From the IMG/VR virus record IMGVR_UViG_3300022929_002740, positions 1 to 63,917 of that record: a stretch of DNA of 63,917 nucleotides; one strand, 5' to 3'. The translations under genes and the position numbers were made by a program. Origin of the DNA: a virus. This document shows positions 12,593-47,827 of this stretch, one piece after another (the stretch's first letter is position 1; the number at the start of each line of letters is the position of its first letter). Below the pieces are notes generated by a model, which made no database searches, was not told the origin of the DNA, and saw nothing but the letters and a program-made list of their open reading frames with translations.

Positions 12593-12796
12593 TTAAGTTG
12601 CAGCAGGTCTTGCGTAAATTTTCTTTACACGTTTTGTTCTATTTGCATGCTCAATATTATGCACTTCACGCTGTTTTCTTAGTCGATTAAGGTGCTTTAG
12701 TGTTAGTCGTTGCTTGCGCACATCGTCTATTTTTCTATTTGCATAGTTGTTTTCTTCAGCGTCATAATACTCTTTTAAAAATTCTGCGTCACGCAT
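12593..12796 (-). CDS. Small basic protein, gp67-position
   Basis: A 67-residue, charged, helical protein beginning 'MRDAEFLKEYYDAEE' and ending in a basic tail. The start at 12796 is preferred over an upstream alternative because a good ribosome binding site (AGGAG, 6 nt spacing) precedes it and it overlaps the gp20 stop by 8 nt, implying translational coupling. In T4 the small core gene 67 lies directly after gene 20, so this is the positional equivalent. Sequence identity to gp67 is not evident: T4 gp67 is acidic, whereas this one is basic at its C-terminus. Function is therefore open. Confidence 0.7.
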   Translation of the reverse strand: MRDAEFLKEYYDAEENNYANRKIDDVRKQRLTLKHLNRLRKQREVHNIEHANRTKRVKKIYARPAAT

Positions 12797-14465
12797 TTTG
12801 GTCTCCTGTTGGTGCAGCTTCTGCACCACTTATCGGGCTAGCGCCTGATTCTGTATCGTCAGTGGGTGCATCTACATCCATATCAATGTCACTGCCATCC
12901 GGAACATCAAAGCCACGTACTCCTACGTTGCCTAATCCTGGCATTGAATCTCCGTCTGGAGTTACACCACTTTCGTTTTCTTCTTCCCACATACGCTCAT
13001 TCTTTAGAATCTCATCTTCAGTTAAGCCTAAATATTTCTCCATTAAGAAACGTCTGCTCATGTAGTTTACGCCTTCTAAGCTACCAAATACATTTGCTCT
13101 TGCGCTGTGGATTTCAATCTCTTTGTATTGACTAAAGCTCTGAGGCTCTACAAATTTTAAATCAAACAAACTTGCGTCAATACTCAAACCTTTGTTTTTC
13201 ATAAACAGTTTGAATTCTTTGTCCATGGTAGGTGCTAGTGCATTTTGTAGTCTCATACAGTATTGATTGAATCTGTATTCTTGAATAAATGCTGTGCCTA
13301 CTCTACCATCCACGTATGTTGCTGTTCCATCATCTGGACCTGTTGGCAAGTAACTACTAGGCACACGCAATGCTCTTAGCATTTTGTTTGTGAAATAACG
13401 CAAGTCATCAATTTGACCTAAGTTATCTCCGCCTGGTAACACTTCAACTTTACTACCTCTGCCTTCAGCAGTTTGTGCAAAGAAGTAGTCTTCCATGATG
13501 CTAAGTGGATTGTATGCGGCATCCATAATAGTTGTGCCGCCACCAGTTTTGTTTGGAATACGCTTTTGGTGAATTTCGTTTTTAACACGCTCAACAAAAC
13601 CCATAGCTTTGTTGGGAGGCATATTACCTACATCAACATAAAACACTCTGCGTTCCGGAGCACGTTGTACTCTATAAATGATAATACTGTCTTCAAGCAA
13701 TTCTTTTTGCTTGTATGTTTTGAAAATCGGATCTAAGATACTGCTACCAAACGGCCAGTTCATGTCCATGCCTTCTGTCATACCCAAGTGTACAACATGG
13801 CTTGCGTCTACTGTGTACTCTTGAATGTTGCCTGTGCCTGGATCATACTGTCCTGCTTGTTGTCCATAAGCACTTTTGTCCACTGCTTGTCCACGCATCA
13901 TACTGTTTACACTACTGTATGTTTGACTGTGTTGCACTGGTTGGCTTACAGTTTTTTCTTGCATGTTGAGATCAATGTTTTTAACAATGTACTGCTCAGG
14001 CTTTTTGCCTTTGGCTTCGTTTACAACTGCTTTGGTAACATCAACAGGATTTACATAATATAATTCCCATGTTTCTGGATCTCTAATAAAGAACTGATCT
14101 CCGTACTTGATGCTGTTTCTAAACATACGAAAGATACGTTTGTCCCAGTCTTGTAGGTTACACCATTGGTTAAGTGTTGACTCTAGTATCTTTGCTTCGC
14201 TTTCTGTAGCAGTTTCTTTGTATTCAATTCTAAAAGGAACACCTGTTACTTCATCTACTTGTGTACTGAATTCGCTAATAATGTCAAGAGCAGCGTTAAT
14301 CTCACTGTCCATGTCCATTTGATCATACTGTGCATAACGCTCAACTCTATTAGGTTGCCCACTGTAAACTTCAGGCAACCAGCTCTGAAAGCGGCTAGCA
14401 CTGCTAGGCTTCATACTATCAGTAGCTTGCCCGCCGTATGCTGTAAAATGTTTCTTCCAACTCAT
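12789..14465 (-). CDS. gp20: Portal vertex protein gp20
   Basis: A 558-residue protein with clear gp20 features: 'DSEINAALDIISEFSTQVDE' near residue 53, 'GDQFFIRDPETWELYYVNP' near 120, 'YRVQRAPERRVFYVDVGN' near 265, and a long helical region ending in an acidic tail. Twelve copies form the portal through which DNA enters and leaves the head. T4 gp20 has 524 residues. It is first in the head operon, 28 nt downstream of a late promoter, and overlaps the start of the small gp67-position gene. Confidence 0.96.
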   Translation of the reverse strand: MSWKKHFTAYGGQATDSMKPSSASRFQSWLPEVYSGQPNRVERYAQYDQMDMDSEINAALDIISEFSTQVDEVTGVPFRIEYKETATESEAKILESTLNQWCNLQDWDKRIFRMFRNSIKYGDQFFIRDPETWELYYVNPVDVTKAVVNEAKGKKPEQYIVKNIDLNMQEKTVSQPVQHSQTYSSVNSMMRGQAVDKSAYGQQAGQYDPGTGNIQEYTVDASHVVHLGMTEGMDMNWPFGSSILDPIFKTYKQKELLEDSIIIYRVQRAPERRVFYVDVGNMPPNKAMGFVERVKNEIHQKRIPNKTGGGTTIMDAAYNPLSIMEDYFFAQTAEGRGSKVEVLPGGDNLGQIDDLRYFTNKMLRALRVPSSYLPTGPDDGTATYVDGRVGTAFIQEYRFNQYCMRLQNALAPTMDKEFKLFMKNKGLSIDASLFDLKFVEPQSFSQYKEIEIHSARANVFGSLEGVNYMSRRFLMEKYLGLTEDEILKNERMWEEENESGVTPDGDSMPGLGNVGVRGFDVPDGSDIDMDVDAPTDDTESGASPISGAEAAPTGDQNA

Positions 14466-14523: not shown

Positions 14524-16392
14524 TCACCGATTCGATTCCTGTCTAAAGAATTCAAGGATATCTCGCATCGAGTTTGTAAGCCCAGATACTAACGAAGCCA
14601 CACTCGTCGGAGATAAGTTAAATTCTCTAGCACCTTCAAATGCATTTCTGAGATCTAACTTAGCTTGATCTTCTTCACTGTATTCTGGGTTACCATCTGC
14701 GTCCGTTCCTATCTGTGTTGGCTCAAAGTCTTTGAAGAATGCTGCACCGCCTGCACCTAGTGCATTTACCGCTGCATTCATTTGTAGAATTTTACCAATC
14801 TTATCTTGTCCGATGGATCTTGCAACAACACCGCCTAAAAAGGCTTCACTTGCAAAATCAATCTCATTGCCTGCTCCAAGATTCAGTAGTGCTTGTGGTC
14901 CAAGTTCTCCAAGTGCTGCACCTATGCCTTCTGCTAAACTGCTTGCCATGTCACTTGATAAAAAGTTATTAATGTTTTTAGTAAAATCACTAAACGCTTT
15001 GCCTAAATCGTTTGCTTCATCACCAACAATATTTAATGCTGTGTCTAGTCTTAGAGCAGCTACTAATTTTGCCTGTTCCTCTAATTCGAGTGTCAATGTC
15101 TGCAACTCTTTTCCTGAGCCTTCGACACCTTCAGTCAATTCATTGTATGCACTTTCAAAGTTTTCCCTCATATTATCTTGAGTGTTTACCATGCGCTGTT
15201 GCACTGTGAGTATTTCTTCTGCAACACTGTCTCCAAGTGCAGCTTGTGTTCTCAGTACATTACTGCTTTGTCCTACATCTGAGGCAACATTTTGTACCAT
15301 CGACTGTAGTGTTGTCATATCTAAATCACCGCCATTGGCAAATCCTTGATTAATAAAATTAATTAATTCCTCTGCGCCGCCGCCTAGACGTGCAATCAAT
15401 TCAGGAGCAAAAGCATTAGCAGGCAAGTCAGTAGCAATGCCATTGATAATAGCTTCACCTAGTGCTTTACCTCCCGGCAATTGACTGAGTGCTCCTGTCA
15501 TTGCTTCGAATTTTTTACGAGTATCTTCGCTTTGTTCGCTGAGAAAGCTCTGTGCAATTACACTTTTCTTGGCTTCCATCTGTGCTTTAATTCGTTCTCT
15601 TACATCTTGTCCTGTTACTTTAGCCATAGCTTGTTGTTGTTTTAGATTTTCTAACATAGCAGCAGAAAATTGTTCTGTTGTTGCATTTCTAAACTGTTCT
15701 TGATTCATGCTATCACGTCTAATCTGTAACTCTTCTCCCAAGTACTCTGACATCTCTGCACTGGTCATACTAAATCCGCCAGCGGCTATAGCACCTTTTC
15801 TAAACTGTTCGTTTAATTTTAAAAATTCCATACTGCCGGATTGTGTGCTATCGCTAAGACTTCTGATTGCAGCTTGGTTGGTTGCAATAATTTTACTAAA
15901 TTCCGTAAAGTCTAAACCAACACCTGCAAGTCTCTTGTTAACATCTAAAAAATTATTTCCAAAGTCTAATCCAAATCTACTTGCAAATCTGAAACTTTCA
16001 CCTAGATCAATAGCAGCTTGGTTAGCCATTCCAAACGCAGTTGCAATAACACTAGATCCAAGTCCTGAAAAGAATCCACTGAGTGCGCTGTTGAATGTAG
16101 TTGCACTTTGAGAAGATTGTATAGCTTGATTGCCTATATTTCCAGCACCCTGACGCATTTGTCTCATCAATGTTATATTGTCTTTTTCGTTGTTTTTATT
16201 GCCTTCTTGTATGCCTCTGCGTATTCCAGATAGTATATTATTACTTTGATTGCCTTCTTCTTTGACTGCACCTAGTGCAGCATTAAGTGATTTTTGTGCA
16301 CCTAATAATTCATTGAGTGTGCTTTCACTAGCAAGTTCACTAGCGTTGACTTCAACACTCTGTCCACCAAATTGAAAATATATGCTTGCCAT
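14524..16392 (-). CDS. Probable tail tape-measure protein (gp29-like position)
   Basis: A 622-residue protein. A short beta start ('MASIYFQFGGQSVEV') leads to a helical coiled-coil stretch (about 20-85) and then a Gly/Ala-rich hydrophobic segment at about 105-135 ('SGFFSGLGSSVIATAFGMAN'), as in tape-measure proteins that insert into the host membrane. The rest is mostly amphipathic helices with further hydrophobic patches. Length is close to T4 gp29 (590). It lies back to back with the gp26-like gene that has a probable frameshift extension; tail chaperone genes of that type usually sit next to the tape measure. No strong sequence motif confirms the call, so a large baseplate or hub protein remains possible. 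Confidence 0.6.
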   Translation of the reverse strand: MASIYFQFGGQSVEVNASELASESTLNELLGAQKSLNAALGAVKEEGNQSNNILSGIRRGIQEGNKNNEKDNITLMRQMRQGAGNIGNQAIQSSQSATTFNSALSGFFSGLGSSVIATAFGMANQAAIDLGESFRFASRFGLDFGNNFLDVNKRLAGVGLDFTEFSKIIATNQAAIRSLSDSTQSGSMEFLKLNEQFRKGAIAAGGFSMTSAEMSEYLGEELQIRRDSMNQEQFRNATTEQFSAAMLENLKQQQAMAKVTGQDVRERIKAQMEAKKSVIAQSFLSEQSEDTRKKFEAMTGALSQLPGGKALGEAIINGIATDLPANAFAPELIARLGGGAEELINFINQGFANGGDLDMTTLQSMVQNVASDVGQSSNVLRTQAALGDSVAEEILTVQQRMVNTQDNMRENFESAYNELTEGVEGSGKELQTLTLELEEQAKLVAALRLDTALNIVGDEANDLGKAFSDFTKNINNFLSSDMASSLAEGIGAALGELGPQALLNLGAGNEIDFASEAFLGGVVARSIGQDKIGKILQMNAAVNALGAGGAAFFKDFEPTQIGTDADGNPEYSEEDQAKLDLRNAFEGAREFNLSPTSVASLVSGLTNSMRDILEFFRQESNR

Positions 16393-16449: not shown

Positions 16450-17292
16450 ATGAACAATCCACTAGCTAATCACTTTAGACAAAAAGAAATCTATGTCAGA
16501 CTGCCAACTCAAGGCAAATGGCTATCTAACAAGCCCAAACTCACCCAAGATGGCGAGATTGGTATTATGCCAATGACACTACAAGATGAAATACTACTGA
16601 GTATACCTGACAGCTTGTACAACGGAGAAAGTTTGTTTAAACTGATATCCAGTATTGTTCCTGACATCGCAGATCCTTACGAACTCAGTTTACCAGACTT
16701 TGATGTGATACTGCTAGCCAGTAGAGCTGCAACGTATGACAAAAAAATGAGTGTGGAAAGTTTTTGCACACACTGCAACGAACCAAACATGTATGAAATA
16801 GACTTGCCTAGTATTTTAAGCAAAGTTAGATTAATTGGGCAAGACAACATATTTGAAATAGACGGTTTGGTTTTTGAACTAAGACCTAATACAGTAGCCG
16901 CACTTAATACATTTCATATTAAAAATATACAAAGTACAAGTTTGCTGAGACAGTTACACAATTCATCTGATCAAGATAAACTTATACACAGTGAAGAATA
17001 TCAAAATAACTTATCTATAGTAAGTGCCGCAAATATTGCGTTGATTGCCGACGCTATTGTTTGTGTAACAACACCTGACGGAACACAAGTTAAAGACATG
17101 CAACACATCATCGAATATGTCAACAATGCCAAACGTCATGTGATTACAAAAATCGAAGAGAAAGCAAAAGCATTGAACAACAATGGACTAAACAAAACAT
17201 TTAATTTTACTTGTAGTCATGAAGAATGCTTAAAAGATTTTGAAGGTGCTATAGAATTTAACCCAGCTTTTTTTTTCAGAAATATATCCTAG
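16450..17292 (+). CDS. Baseplate hub/tail-assembly protein, gp26-like
   Basis: A 280-residue protein starting 'MNNPLANHFRQKEIYVRLPT' with 'GIMPMTLQDEILLSIPDSLYNGE' near residue 38, the pattern of the T4 baseplate gp26 family. Two cysteine pairs, 'CTHC' near 107-110 and 'CSHEEC' near 256-261, may hold a metal. The reading frame ends in a T9 run and stops at 17290. A second frame, -1 relative to this one, is open through the same run to 17534 and has no credible start of its own, so a frameshifted longer product is likely. It would act in hub assembly or as a tail-assembly chaperone. An 'AGGCG' 6 nt upstream may serve as ribosome binding site. Confidence 0.8.
   Translation: MNNPLANHFRQKEIYVRLPTQGKWLSNKPKLTQDGEIGIMPMTLQDEILLSIPDSLYNGESLFKLISSIVPDIADPYELSLPDFDVILLASRAATYDKKMSVESFCTHCNEPNMYEIDLPSILSKVRLIGQDNIFEIDGLVFELRPNTVAALNTFHIKNIQSTSLLRQLHNSSDQDKLIHSEEYQNNLSIVSAANIALIADAIVCVTTPDGTQVKDMQHIIEYVNNAKRHVITKIEEKAKALNNNGLNKTFNFTCSHEECLKDFEGAIEFNPAFFFRNIS
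17268..17277 (+). promoter_or_regulatory. Candidate -1 ribosomal frameshift site (T9C run)
   Basis: In the gp26-like frame the codons are GCT TTT TTT TTC, which gives T TTT TTT and T TTT TTC heptamers of the X XXY YYZ type. Slipping back one base at this run joins the gp26-like frame to the downstream open frame. A small stem might form downstream but none is strong. Confidence 0.6.
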
Positions 17293-17534
17293 CAAGCATA
17301 GGTGATGCTAGTAAAGTTGAAGAAATTATCCAACGATACGAAAATGCACAAAAGAGATTGAGAAGTCAAGTCAACAGCATTGTGATATATTCACAAGGAA
17401 GTTTTACACTTCAAGAATTATACAAAATGCCAATGCATTACATCAAAGAGATCGAAGAAGCATTAATTGAAAAGAACGAAAAGGAAAAGCAGATGATAGA
17501 ACAAGCAAAGGGAAAGAATAGACAAACATTCTAA
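17274..17534 (+). CDS. Frameshift-dependent C-terminal extension of the gp26-like protein
   Basis: An open frame of about 86 codons, -1 relative to gp26, continuing from the T9 run to a TAA at 17532-17534. It encodes a helical, Lys/Glu-rich segment ('IGDASKVEEIIQRYENAQ' at its start, 'FTLQELYKMPMHYIKEIEEA' in the middle) with normal codon use. It has no ATG or GTG with a ribosome binding site before its middle, which argues it is made only as a fusion. The layout mirrors the G/GT tail-assembly chaperones of other tailed phages. An alternative is a T4 gp51-like gene read from a rare start codon. Confidence 0.65.
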   Translation, partial: FQKYILASIGDASKVEEIIQRYENAQKRLRSQVNSIVIYSQGSFTLQELYKMPMHYIKEIEEALIEKNEKEKQMIEQAKGKNRQTF

Positions 17535-17929
17535 TGTTTCTTCGAAGAGCTAACGCTCATCGTCATACTCATTTCATTTCGTATGATATTTCTTTCTTAG
17601 ATATAATTTTTATTATGATTAGTTATTACCCTGTTTTCAGTCGCACTTAGCTTGTTACAGCCAAGTGCAAAAAAAAGCTAAAGGTCATTACCCCGCTCCA
17701 GATCGCTCCGTTATAGTGAAACCTAATATAGGCAGAGGCGGTCTTGCGCTACCCCTTTACTCACTGCTTAAGACGCAGAAACTCCAGATGCTATAACGTC
17801 AACATTACTGGATATCCGTGGGTTACAATGGCACAGTAGAGCCCACTCTTTTGGTTTGTTTTGCCTCAGCAAGATCCGACGGTACATATTACTACGCACA
17901 ATCTCAATGCTTTTGATTAGGAGGCTATA
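17535..17929. ncRNA. Gene-free 395 bp with inverted repeats, candidate structured RNA
   Basis: No credible ORF lies between these two convergent genes, and base composition is less AT-rich than the flanks. Inverted repeats seen: GCACTTaGC (17643-17651) with GCcAAGTGC (17660-17668); an alternative pairing TTAGCTT (17647-17653) with AAGCTAA (17675-17681) that excludes the first; CGTTATAG (17709-17716) with CTATAACG (17791-17798) closing an inner stem GC-g-GTCTT (17738-17745) with AAGACGC (17770-17776); and GTGGGTT (17818-17824) with AGCCCAC (17840-17846). CTCCAGAT occurs twice (17696 and 17782). A TATAAT at 17602-17607 could be a -10 box for a plus-strand RNA. I find no tRNA T-arm, tmRNA or RNase P signature. 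RNA identity and strand are inference. Confidence 0.45.
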
Positions 17930-18358
17930 TTATGACTGGTGTCTATTAAGGGATTCTACGAGTGCCTTGGATCCGCCTACACGGACGTTTATGATGCCGT
18001 TGTAATATTCATCTGTTTCTAGCACTTTACGATCGAACTGTTCACGAGCTTCTAAGTAACTCATTTCACCTCTGCCTGTGCAGAAGTAAAGTATTTCTCT
18101 TGTAAAGTTCTCTGGGCCTAATTCTTTTACATCTGCGTTCAACTTGTCACTGCTTCCCCAATAGGTACGCCAGTCACTTTCTTTAGTTGATCGTCTCTTG
18201 TTCTTTTTGCCTTTGAGGGGGTTTTTAGTTACTTTAAATTGTGCCAGTTTTTTGCCAATGTACTTTTTGCCATTCGTGGTGTTGGTAATGAGATATACGA
18301 AACCTACGTATTCCTCTGGTATTTGTTCAATAAGTTTGCCTTGATAAGTCCATTGCAT
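17930..18358 (-). CDS. GIY-YIG family endonuclease
   Basis: A 142-residue protein with the GIY-YIG signature as 'GFVYLI' (residues 19-24) and 'KYIGKK' (32-37), then an Arg- and Lys-rich segment with 'DWRTYWGSS' and a downstream Glu in 'SYLEAREQFDRKVL', matching the catalytic Arg and Glu order of the fold. The ATG at 18358 is chosen over a TTG further upstream. There is no clear ribosome binding site, but a good sigma70-type promoter lies just upstream. It could be a free-standing homing endonuclease or a host-DNA-cutting enzyme. It is the last gene of the minus-strand early block and converges on the structured gap at 17535-17929. Confidence 0.85.
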   Translation of the reverse strand: MQWTYQGKLIEQIPEEYVGFVYLITNTTNGKKYIGKKLAQFKVTKNPLKGKKNKRRSTKESDWRTYWGSSDKLNADVKELGPENFTREILYFCTGRGEMSYLEAREQFDRKVLETDEYYNGIINVRVGGSKALVESLNRHQS

Positions 18359-18375
18359 GTTAGTATATAGCAACT

Positions 18376-18406: not shown

Positions 18407-19099
18407 CTAAATATACCTCTTTTTTAAGATTTCCCAAGTTTGTTGATATCCTCGGTCAATTTGATAAAAATGTGTACTGGCTTGTGCCGCACTATAATCA
18501 TTACCGCCTGGGTAACAATTGTCTCCAAAGAAGATTGTTCTTGTGTCTGTATAGTGTTTTAGTACTTGACTTTTATCACAATCAATGGGGAAGATATCTA
18601 TACTGGTTTCTCCTGCTACTTGTGCTACAGCATCATCAAACATTTCATTGAACGCCAATGACACCAACTGTCTTCCGTGATGGTGTTGTTCCCATTCAGC
18701 ATATCTAGCACGTTGATCCCAGTCTGCATTTCTTCCTACAATACTAAAGTTTGCAGTACCAGTTCTTTGTTCAATATGGTTACCAGTTTTCTCTGGATAA
18801 TCTATACTGTCTACTTGTTGTTGTAAAAAGTCATATTGTTGTTGAGTGAGTGTCCATGGATTTTTATGGTGTTCTCGATCTCCGATAAACACATGATTGC
18901 CGCTACAATGATATACCCTTTCAAATGCATTAGTGAGCTTTAAACCAATCTGTTCTACAGTTTTTGGTCTGTCACTGCCTGTTACAATTACACATTGATG
19001 ATTGTTTACAAACTCCAGCATCACTTGTTCAAACTTAGGATCTATTTGTTTTCTTGGATCAGTTAATGTACCGTCTACATCAAAAAGGAACTTCGTCAT
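18407..19099 (-). CDS. Eukaryotic-type phosphomannomutase-like HAD protein
   Basis: A 230-residue HAD-superfamily protein with nucleophile motif 'DVDGTLTDPR' (Asp7 and Asp9). It continues with 'GTANFSIVGRNADWDQRARY' around residue 114, 'ETSIDIFPIDCDKSQVLKH' around 167 and 'FFGDNCYPGGNDYS' near 190. These are the marks of alpha-phosphomannomutase (PMM1/PMM2 family), which interconverts mannose-6-phosphate and mannose-1-phosphate, rather than of the usual bacterial ManB type. It is close to the PMM length (about 245). It overlaps the 3' end of the upstream 102-residue gene by 20 nt. It may supply mannose-1-phosphate to the sugar genes at 47886-63917. Plain phosphatase activity is possible. Confidence 0.82.
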   Translation of the reverse strand: MTKFLFDVDGTLTDPRKQIDPKFEQVMLEFVNNHQCVIVTGSDRPKTVEQIGLKLTNAFERVYHCSGNHVFIGDREHHKNPWTLTQQQYDFLQQQVDSIDYPEKTGNHIEQRTGTANFSIVGRNADWDQRARYAEWEQHHHGRQLVSLAFNEMFDDAVAQVAGETSIDIFPIDCDKSQVLKHYTDTRTIFFGDNCYPGGNDYSAAQASTHFYQIDRGYQQTWEILKKRYI

Positions 19100-46678: not shown

Positions 46679-47827
46679 ATGGTAGTGTCTGTTGGCCAAT
46701 TAGCAGAAGCCTCACACTATAATACGGTAGCAGAAGATGTCAACAAAGTTTTTGGTGACAAGTACAACACTGCGGCTGTAACTGATTCTAATAGAAAAGC
46801 AACCCATAAATTTGGTTGGGGAGCAGTAAACATCGACGATGCTGTTCCAATTGGTGATTTGATAACAGCTCAAAGACTGCAATATCTAGTAGACAGAACC
46901 AATGTAAGTGTAGATCATATCAATGTTACAGACAGTTTGCTTGTGTTTGCTGTTCCCACAGGCAGAGATGATGTTACAGTAAACACACCTATTAGAGCAG
47001 AAGATTTAAACATTGTTGAAAGCAAGTTTAACACAACTATACTTGTAAATGATGCACACACCACAGTAGATCCAACAAACGCAAGTGCGTTGAGTGCAAC
47101 ACCTACAAGTGGCGGCCCACTACAAAGAACCAATAGTTGGCAACATCAACTAACAGGCGAATACTACTGGGACTTTGACAGCTACAATCATTGCAGATAT
47201 TTTTTTAACAGCGGCGGACAACTTCGGGTGAGCTTGTCAATGAGCGGTGGCAGTACAGCAGGTTACTACAACTGGGCAGATGTTATCAATGAGATGGGAA
47301 CACTCAGCTTTACTTGGAACAATGTAATACAAAGTAATAGTATTACAGTTGGCACCAGTGAGAACAAAGGCGTTTATGACCTAACAGAGCTATATGGCGA
47401 CGGTGACGGTGCTACAGATGATCAAGGACTATTGTTTACCAGTAGCGGTGTTACACTTAGTGGAACAGGATATGGTTACGGTTATGGTGCAAGCAGTCCA
47501 TATGGATTTATTACTGGACCAGGTAGTTATCCAGCGTATGCTAACTTTTATGCAAATACTGCTTATACCAGTAGTTACAGTACATATAGCAGTTATCAGA
47601 ACTTAAAATTTAAATTATACGGCAAATACAGCTTGAATGGAAGACGTTTACATTTTAAACTAGTACTAGATGATACTAGTTTTGATCAAGTAATCGACGG
47701 CACAGTTAGTGCAAGCCTCAGTTATCTTATGCCCGACACACTTACAAGAGGATCTGCAACGTTTGATGTAAACCCAGATCCAACAGTTGCTATCTCAGAT
47801 GATTTCAATGGCGTATTTGATTCATAA
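46679..47827 (+). CDS. Structural protein with Tyr/Gly/Ser-rich beta domain (382 aa)
   Basis: The N-terminal 70 residues are a small helical domain ('QLAEASHYNTVAEDVNKVFG'). Residues 140-382 are beta-rich with a pronounced 'YGYGYGASSPYGF' stretch near 270. Proteins of this layout occur at the end of the tail gene block in marine T4-like phages and are virion components. It is the last late gene before the sigma70 promoter of the accessory cassette. A ribosome binding site is not obvious; the ATG follows directly after the upstream stop. Function beyond virion structure is unknown. Confidence 0.7.
   Translation: MVVSVGQLAEASHYNTVAEDVNKVFGDKYNTAAVTDSNRKATHKFGWGAVNIDDAVPIGDLITAQRLQYLVDRTNVSVDHINVTDSLLVFAVPTGRDDVTVNTPIRAEDLNIVESKFNTTILVNDAHTTVDPTNASALSATPTSGGPLQRTNSWQHQLTGEYYWDFDSYNHCRYFFNSGGQLRVSLSMSGGSTAGYYNWADVINEMGTLSFTWNNVIQSNSITVGTSENKGVYDLTELYGDGDGATDDQGLLFTSSGVTLSGTGYGYGYGASSPYGFITGPGSYPAYANFYANTAYTSSYSTYSSYQNLKFKLYGKYSLNGRRLHFKLVLDDTSFDQVIDGTVSASLSYLMPDTLTRGSATFDVNPDPTVAISDDFNGVFDS

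Follow-up and report, generated by a model that had tools for sequence, protein, structure and literature searches.

The window, that is, the whole 63,917-nt stretch of viral DNA analysed here, carries a gp26-like gene that is overlapped at its 3′ end by an open -1 frame and flanked by genes on the opposite strand (Table 1). The zero-frame product matches the Pfam family PF12322 (T4_baseplate) with an E value of 1.1e-11 and 45.3 bits, against a Pfam gathering cut-off of 24.5, and phrog_150 (baseplate hub) with an E value of 1.1e-12. T4 gp26 and T4 gp51 both match the same Pfam family (E 9e-64 and 4e-52, respectively). The zero-frame ORF ends in GCT TTT TTT TTC AGA AAT ATA TCC TAG, and the -1 frame is free of stop codons across the T run as far as its TAA. 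An earlier note on this DNA had described both features, and its 86 additional codons correspond to 85 sense codons plus the stop. The 85 codons are counted from the CAG at 17277, and 80 codons of the extension lie past the zero-frame stop.

Table 1. Features of the chaperone locus and its surroundings (positions in the window)
Feature	Position	Strand	Remarks
Portal protein, T4 gp20-like	12789..14465	-	PF07230, E 5e-111; fixes the T4-like context
Divergent neighbour, 622 aa, candidate tape measure	14524..16392	-	hhalign E 3.5e-14 to jumbo-phage set
Short form TAC-N, gp26-like, 280 aa	16450..17292	+	Zero frame; TAG stop at 17290-17292
Long form TAC-NC, putative GT-like fusion, 276 + 85 = 361 aa	16450..17534	+	Deduced product; counterparts in jumbo phages and cyanophages; T4 gp51 is a fused homologue of the cyanophage form
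Slip site GCT TTT TTT TTC (T9C)	17266..17277	+	Tandem zero-frame heptamers T_TTT_TTT and T_TTT_TTC, within 17268-17277
-1 frame extension, helical, 85 sense codons + TAA	17277..17534	+	TAA at 17532-17534
SegE-type GIY-YIG homing endonuclease	17933-18373	-	PF19835, E 2e-36; adjoins the chaperone gene
Phosphomannomutase/HAD-like protein	18410-19099	-	PF03332, E 1.5e-22

The 12-mer at the slip site is unique within the 63.9-kb record, and its run of nine Ts (T9) is the longest run of A or T in the window, where it occurs once. Across 45 ORFs (20,490 codons), an in-frame T_TTT_TTY is found in only one other ORF (46679-47824, plus strand), which has TAT TTT TTT AAC in mid-gene; this second occurrence is probably incidental.

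Both the site and the extension recur in homologues. All 11 IMG/VR relatives, with protein identities of 39-100%, have an identical CTTTTTTTTTC and a conserved -1 extension, and a run of exactly nine Ts is shared by all 17 distinct rows of the window clade. The gene also has matches in 12 large phage genomes: PA5oct, Atu_ph07, Phosso, XaC1, Vibrio 2.275.O, CBB, Munch, SCTP-2, RAS14, GAP32, XacN1 and the uncultured LR756508. All of these except LR756508 carry, at the same Phe-Phe, NNT TTT TTC or T TTT TTT, and the -1 extensions of these 11 genomes span 70-80 codons. Synechococcus phage S-PM2 reads TCT TTT TTC GCA TAA and likewise has a -1 extension, and other T4-like isolates, one of them a Schizotequatrovirus (the genus of KVP40), have T_TTT_TTC. 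The survey covers 100 distinct loci (31 clusters at 70% identity) from marine contigs, cyanophages and jumbo phages, and every one of them has an in-frame T_TTT_TTY at the same Phe-Phe, a -1 extension of 59-86 codons and a zero-frame stop within about 20 codons of the site. The scans of viral contigs were made with single sequences; a profile scan with the full diverse alignment was unproductive, as conserved blocks are lacking. Because 100 of 100 distinct homologous loci conserve the site, the T run and the open -1 frame of the window are not due to chance, and the comparison of homologues proposed in the earlier note comes out in favour of both elements.

A few lineages depart from this pattern. 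Phage RHph_N34 has T_TTT_TTG at the site. Serratia phage 3M (Ackermannviridae; L152:1195-1956) reads CAG GTT TTC ATC TGA without the heptamer and nonetheless keeps a conserved-looking -1 extension. The PF12322 gene of LR756508, an uncultured 484-kb phage (L021:4272), lacks a T run, and its +1 frame holds a comparable helical extension, possibly reached by a +1 or -2 shift.

Codon usage at the site points to selection on the nucleotide sequence. All 31 clusters have a T as the last base of the codon preceding the Phe pair and TTT as the first Phe codon, and 29 of 31 have TTC as the second, compared to 215 TTT and 107 TTC (33% TTC) in the rest of these genes. The 31 clusters are related and hence are not independent trials, while synonymous sites are near saturation between them. 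Given this choice of codons per cluster, the slip site is constrained as a nucleotide sequence, beyond the needs of the protein. The extension is also, by its substitution pattern, evidently under purifying selection: past the zero-frame stop, dN/dS is 0.02-0.14 where measurable and 0.07-0.12 among the closest relatives of the window.

We next consider what the extension is related to. The extensions of the window clade and of the jumbo phages are homologous (hhalign E 2.7e-16). Those of the cyanophages match phrog_634 ('baseplate hub assembly catalyst') with an E value of 3e-28; the T4 gp51 C-terminus matches it as well (E 1e-23), and the cyanophage extensions also align with this C-terminus directly (hhalign E 1e-9). 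Jumbo and cyanophage extensions are connected by a weak profile match (E 3.6e-4). Compared directly by profile, the window extension and the gp51 C-terminus gave no significant match, and a tblastn search with the window extension gave no match in isolate phages; homology is seen only at the same locus or by profile. The window would thus be linked to gp51 in steps: to the jumbo phages by profile, from these to the cyanophages weakly by profile together with the shared locus and slip site, and from the cyanophages to gp51 by profile.

Structure prediction gives a model of the short form with a pLDDT of 82.5 (AlphaFold) and a mostly helical domain for the extension (pLDDT 79.5). In a Foldseek search of the PDB, the HK97 tail assembly chaperone (2ob9) was the second-best match to the predicted short form (E 0.6). 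Compared by VIA, the two align over 94 of the 107 residues of the HK97 protein with an rmsd of 4.0 and a Z of 6.3, which is within the coincidental range. The likeness to HK97 gp13 is one of predicted fold and is suggestive only.

Taken together, the conserved site and extension, the codon choice, the purifying selection and the homology of cyanophage extensions to the gp51 C-terminus support the -1 programmed frameshift of the G/GT type put forward in the earlier note. It is highly probable that ribosomal -1 frameshifting makes the tail assembly chaperone in a short form of 280 aa and a long form of 361 aa, in the manner of lambda G/GT. The locus would be the tail assembly chaperone gene of a T4-related marine phage. 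Most ribosomes would produce the short form, and a minority, presumably small, would move one base back on the U run, with tRNA-Phe in the P and A sites pairing anew on U_UUU_UUC or on the overlapping U_UUU_UUU. These ribosomes would bypass the UAG and add 85 residues to give the long form. If the two forms act like lambda gpG/gpGT, the short form may coat the tape measure protein in many copies, and the rarer long form may recruit tail tube or hub subunits through its helical extension. Ribosomal rather than transcriptional slippage, the low efficiency and the division of labour between the two forms are all what we infer from these comparisons.

In some cyanophages and jumbo phages the site is preceded, some 10 bases away, by a GGAGG or followed by a strong hairpin, and folding z-scores near the site range from +0.8 to -5.4 among lineages. 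The window clade has neither a conserved downstream stem-loop nor an upstream Shine-Dalgarno-like element, with a structure z-score of -1.0 for the window, a point against the proposed shift. Stimulators, being present in the former and not in the latter, are therefore lineage-specific. A conserved stimulatory RNA structure was considered and rejected, as the members of the window clade do not consistently form a hairpin.

The same fusion could also come from transcription, through insertion of an extra U by RNA polymerase at the T9 run, followed by normal translation: one inserted U yields A-F-F-F-Q, a protein identical to that of the ribosomal shift. For the same reason a peptide crossing the junction, which the earlier note had suggested seeking by mass spectrometry, would not discriminate between the two routes. 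Bacterial RNA polymerase slips efficiently on nine As or Ts, and Thermus dnaX uses a T9 productively (PMC5009743); the T9 found in all 17 distinct rows of the window clade exceeds what a ribosomal heptamer needs. Other lineages, however, have only six or seven Ts, in the phase of the zero-frame heptamer, which is too short for efficient polymerase slippage, and the TTC favoured at the last position fits re-pairing of tRNA-Phe. Since most lineages have six Ts followed by C, we regard transcriptional slippage as improbable and disfavour it as the general mechanism. In the window clade alone, T9 could allow both kinds of slippage. One may further imagine that the run was lengthened and kept at exactly T9 in this clade, which yields two overlapping heptamers and a homopolymer sufficient for slippage by the polymerase too, and that a mixed ribosomal and transcriptional mechanism sets the amount of long form, substituting for the hairpins or Shine-Dalgarno-like elements of some cyanophages and jumbo phages; we consider this idea rather unlikely.

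The extension might instead be a separate small protein with a start of its own, and annotators have indeed called it as such, under the name 'gp51' or hub assembly protein in phiM12, CZ01, RHph_N34 and Melnitz and as a hypothetical protein in CBB and Phosso. In Atu_ph07 and Phosso, a -1 frame ATG overlaps the stop (ATGA), and coupled initiation is possible in these two phages. In the window clade, however, the first ~50 codons of the extension contain no ATG and no convincing ribosome-binding site. This bears out the lack of a start asserted for the window, in whose -1 frame no ATG precedes the one at 17427, roughly 50 codons into the extension, and the sole candidate starts ahead of it, TTG at 17358 and GTG at 17382, both have no convincing ribosome-binding site. 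Moreover, the annotated starts mostly omit conserved N-terminal parts of the extension, homology of the extension begins at the slip site, and T4 gp51 has both domains fused. Independent initiation is accordingly very improbable as an account of the extension. Finally, an error in the homopolymer of a single long gene, a type of sequence prone to sequencing and assembly mistakes and named in the earlier note as a possible refutation, has practically no chance of being right and is refuted by independent genomes, as an identical -1 relation, at T6C or T9C, is seen at 100 distinct loci, and numerous isolate genomes from separate laboratories are among them.

Ribosomal frameshifting would have consequences for annotation. 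In several genomes the ORF after gp26 bears the label 'gp51', 'baseplate hub assembly catalyst' or hypothetical, and such ORFs most likely represent the latter half of a single frameshifted protein. The family phrog_634, and phrog_18291 in the case of the CBB type, seem to have been assembled for the most part from such fragments of the extension. Four small ORFs (L142:1908-2069, L148:2022-2189, L153:1896-2075 and L141:1944-2087) sit inside the -1 extension and carry the annotation gp51, baseplate hub assembly (catalyst) or PHA02078.

T4 itself is organised differently, with two genes and no slip site, compared to a single gene with a slip site for the window and the majority of the wider group. 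The 3′ end of T4 gp26, which is the counterpart of the short form, reads GAG TTC TTT GAG TTA CTA TAA, with neither the heptamer nor a -1 extension, and gp51 carries the extension fused. Each T_TTT_TTN-bearing genome searched has one PF12322 gene, except SCTP-2, in which the profile finds none. Complete genomes with a single PF12322 gene include PA5oct, CBB, GAP32, Atu_ph07 and S-PM2; the 63.9-kb window record, which may be a fragment, also has one match. T4 and Klebsiella phage PWKp16, by contrast, have two PF12322 genes without the slip site. In a midpoint-rooted tree, the gp26 and gp51 of T4 and PWKp16 group together (support 93/93, below the strict threshold) and are nested among frameshifting phages, the topology predicted by a duplication in that lineage as the origin of the two-gene state. 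From these sequences, the T4 arrangement looks derived, a duplicated and fused gene having replaced the frameshift. Whether gene duplication replaced a recoding event can thereby be put to the test in a model phage.

The survey indicates that relatives of T4 (cyanophages, phages of the KVP40 type, jumbo phages and marine uncultured phages) use a T_TTT_TTY -1 shift in their PF12322 gene. The remark in the earlier note that such a frameshift is not a textbook feature of T4-like phages holds for T4 itself, whereas most of the wider group appears to have the frameshift, as has partly been published. A 2016 review described the G-T frameshift as widely conserved among long-tailed phages 'except T4' (PMC5009743), and a review of T4 tail assembly lists both gp26 and gp51 as hub assembly chaperones (PMC3004832). 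Vladimirov et al. (2022), as cited in PMC10885494, described T4 gp26/gp51 as short and long chaperone genes, and according to papers that cite this work poly-T sites have been reported before in T4-like phages. Chaperone genes of the Vandenendeviridae and Andersonviridae, such as that of phage Adele (PMC12846349), have a GTTTTT-type poly-T -1 slip site like that of the window, and their extension too is routinely annotated as a separate gene, although these families differ from that of the window. The lambda gpG/gpGT chaperones also arise by a -1 frameshift, whereas the window has the heptamer T_TTT_TTY and the family PF12322. The window locus is therefore a further example of an already known type of frameshifted chaperone; the breadth of the survey, the contrast in copy number and the constant T9 of the window clade may be new.

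The position of the gene also differs from lambda, where the chaperone gene lies directly upstream of the tape measure; here it is divergent from its structural neighbour. This 622-aa ORF is homologous to a virion structural protein located between portal and gp26 in jumbo phages, and the order portal, structural protein, gp26 is common to PA5oct, Phosso, CBB, GAP32, XaC1 and SCTP-2. It matches neither T4 gp29 nor the downstream ORFs of cyanophages, and identification as tape measure through gp29 homology was dropped. The probable tape-measure gene of the earlier note lies on the opposite strand and has a structural homologue in jumbo phages, and its identity as tape measure is plausible. Between the extension and the endonuclease, some 390 bases (17540-17930) contain no called gene, with a minus-strand folding z-score of -1.4. 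An Rfam search of the window gave no match, a weak hit in this downstream intergenic stretch being due to chance. The segE gene of T4 is likewise found within a few kb of genes 26 and 51.
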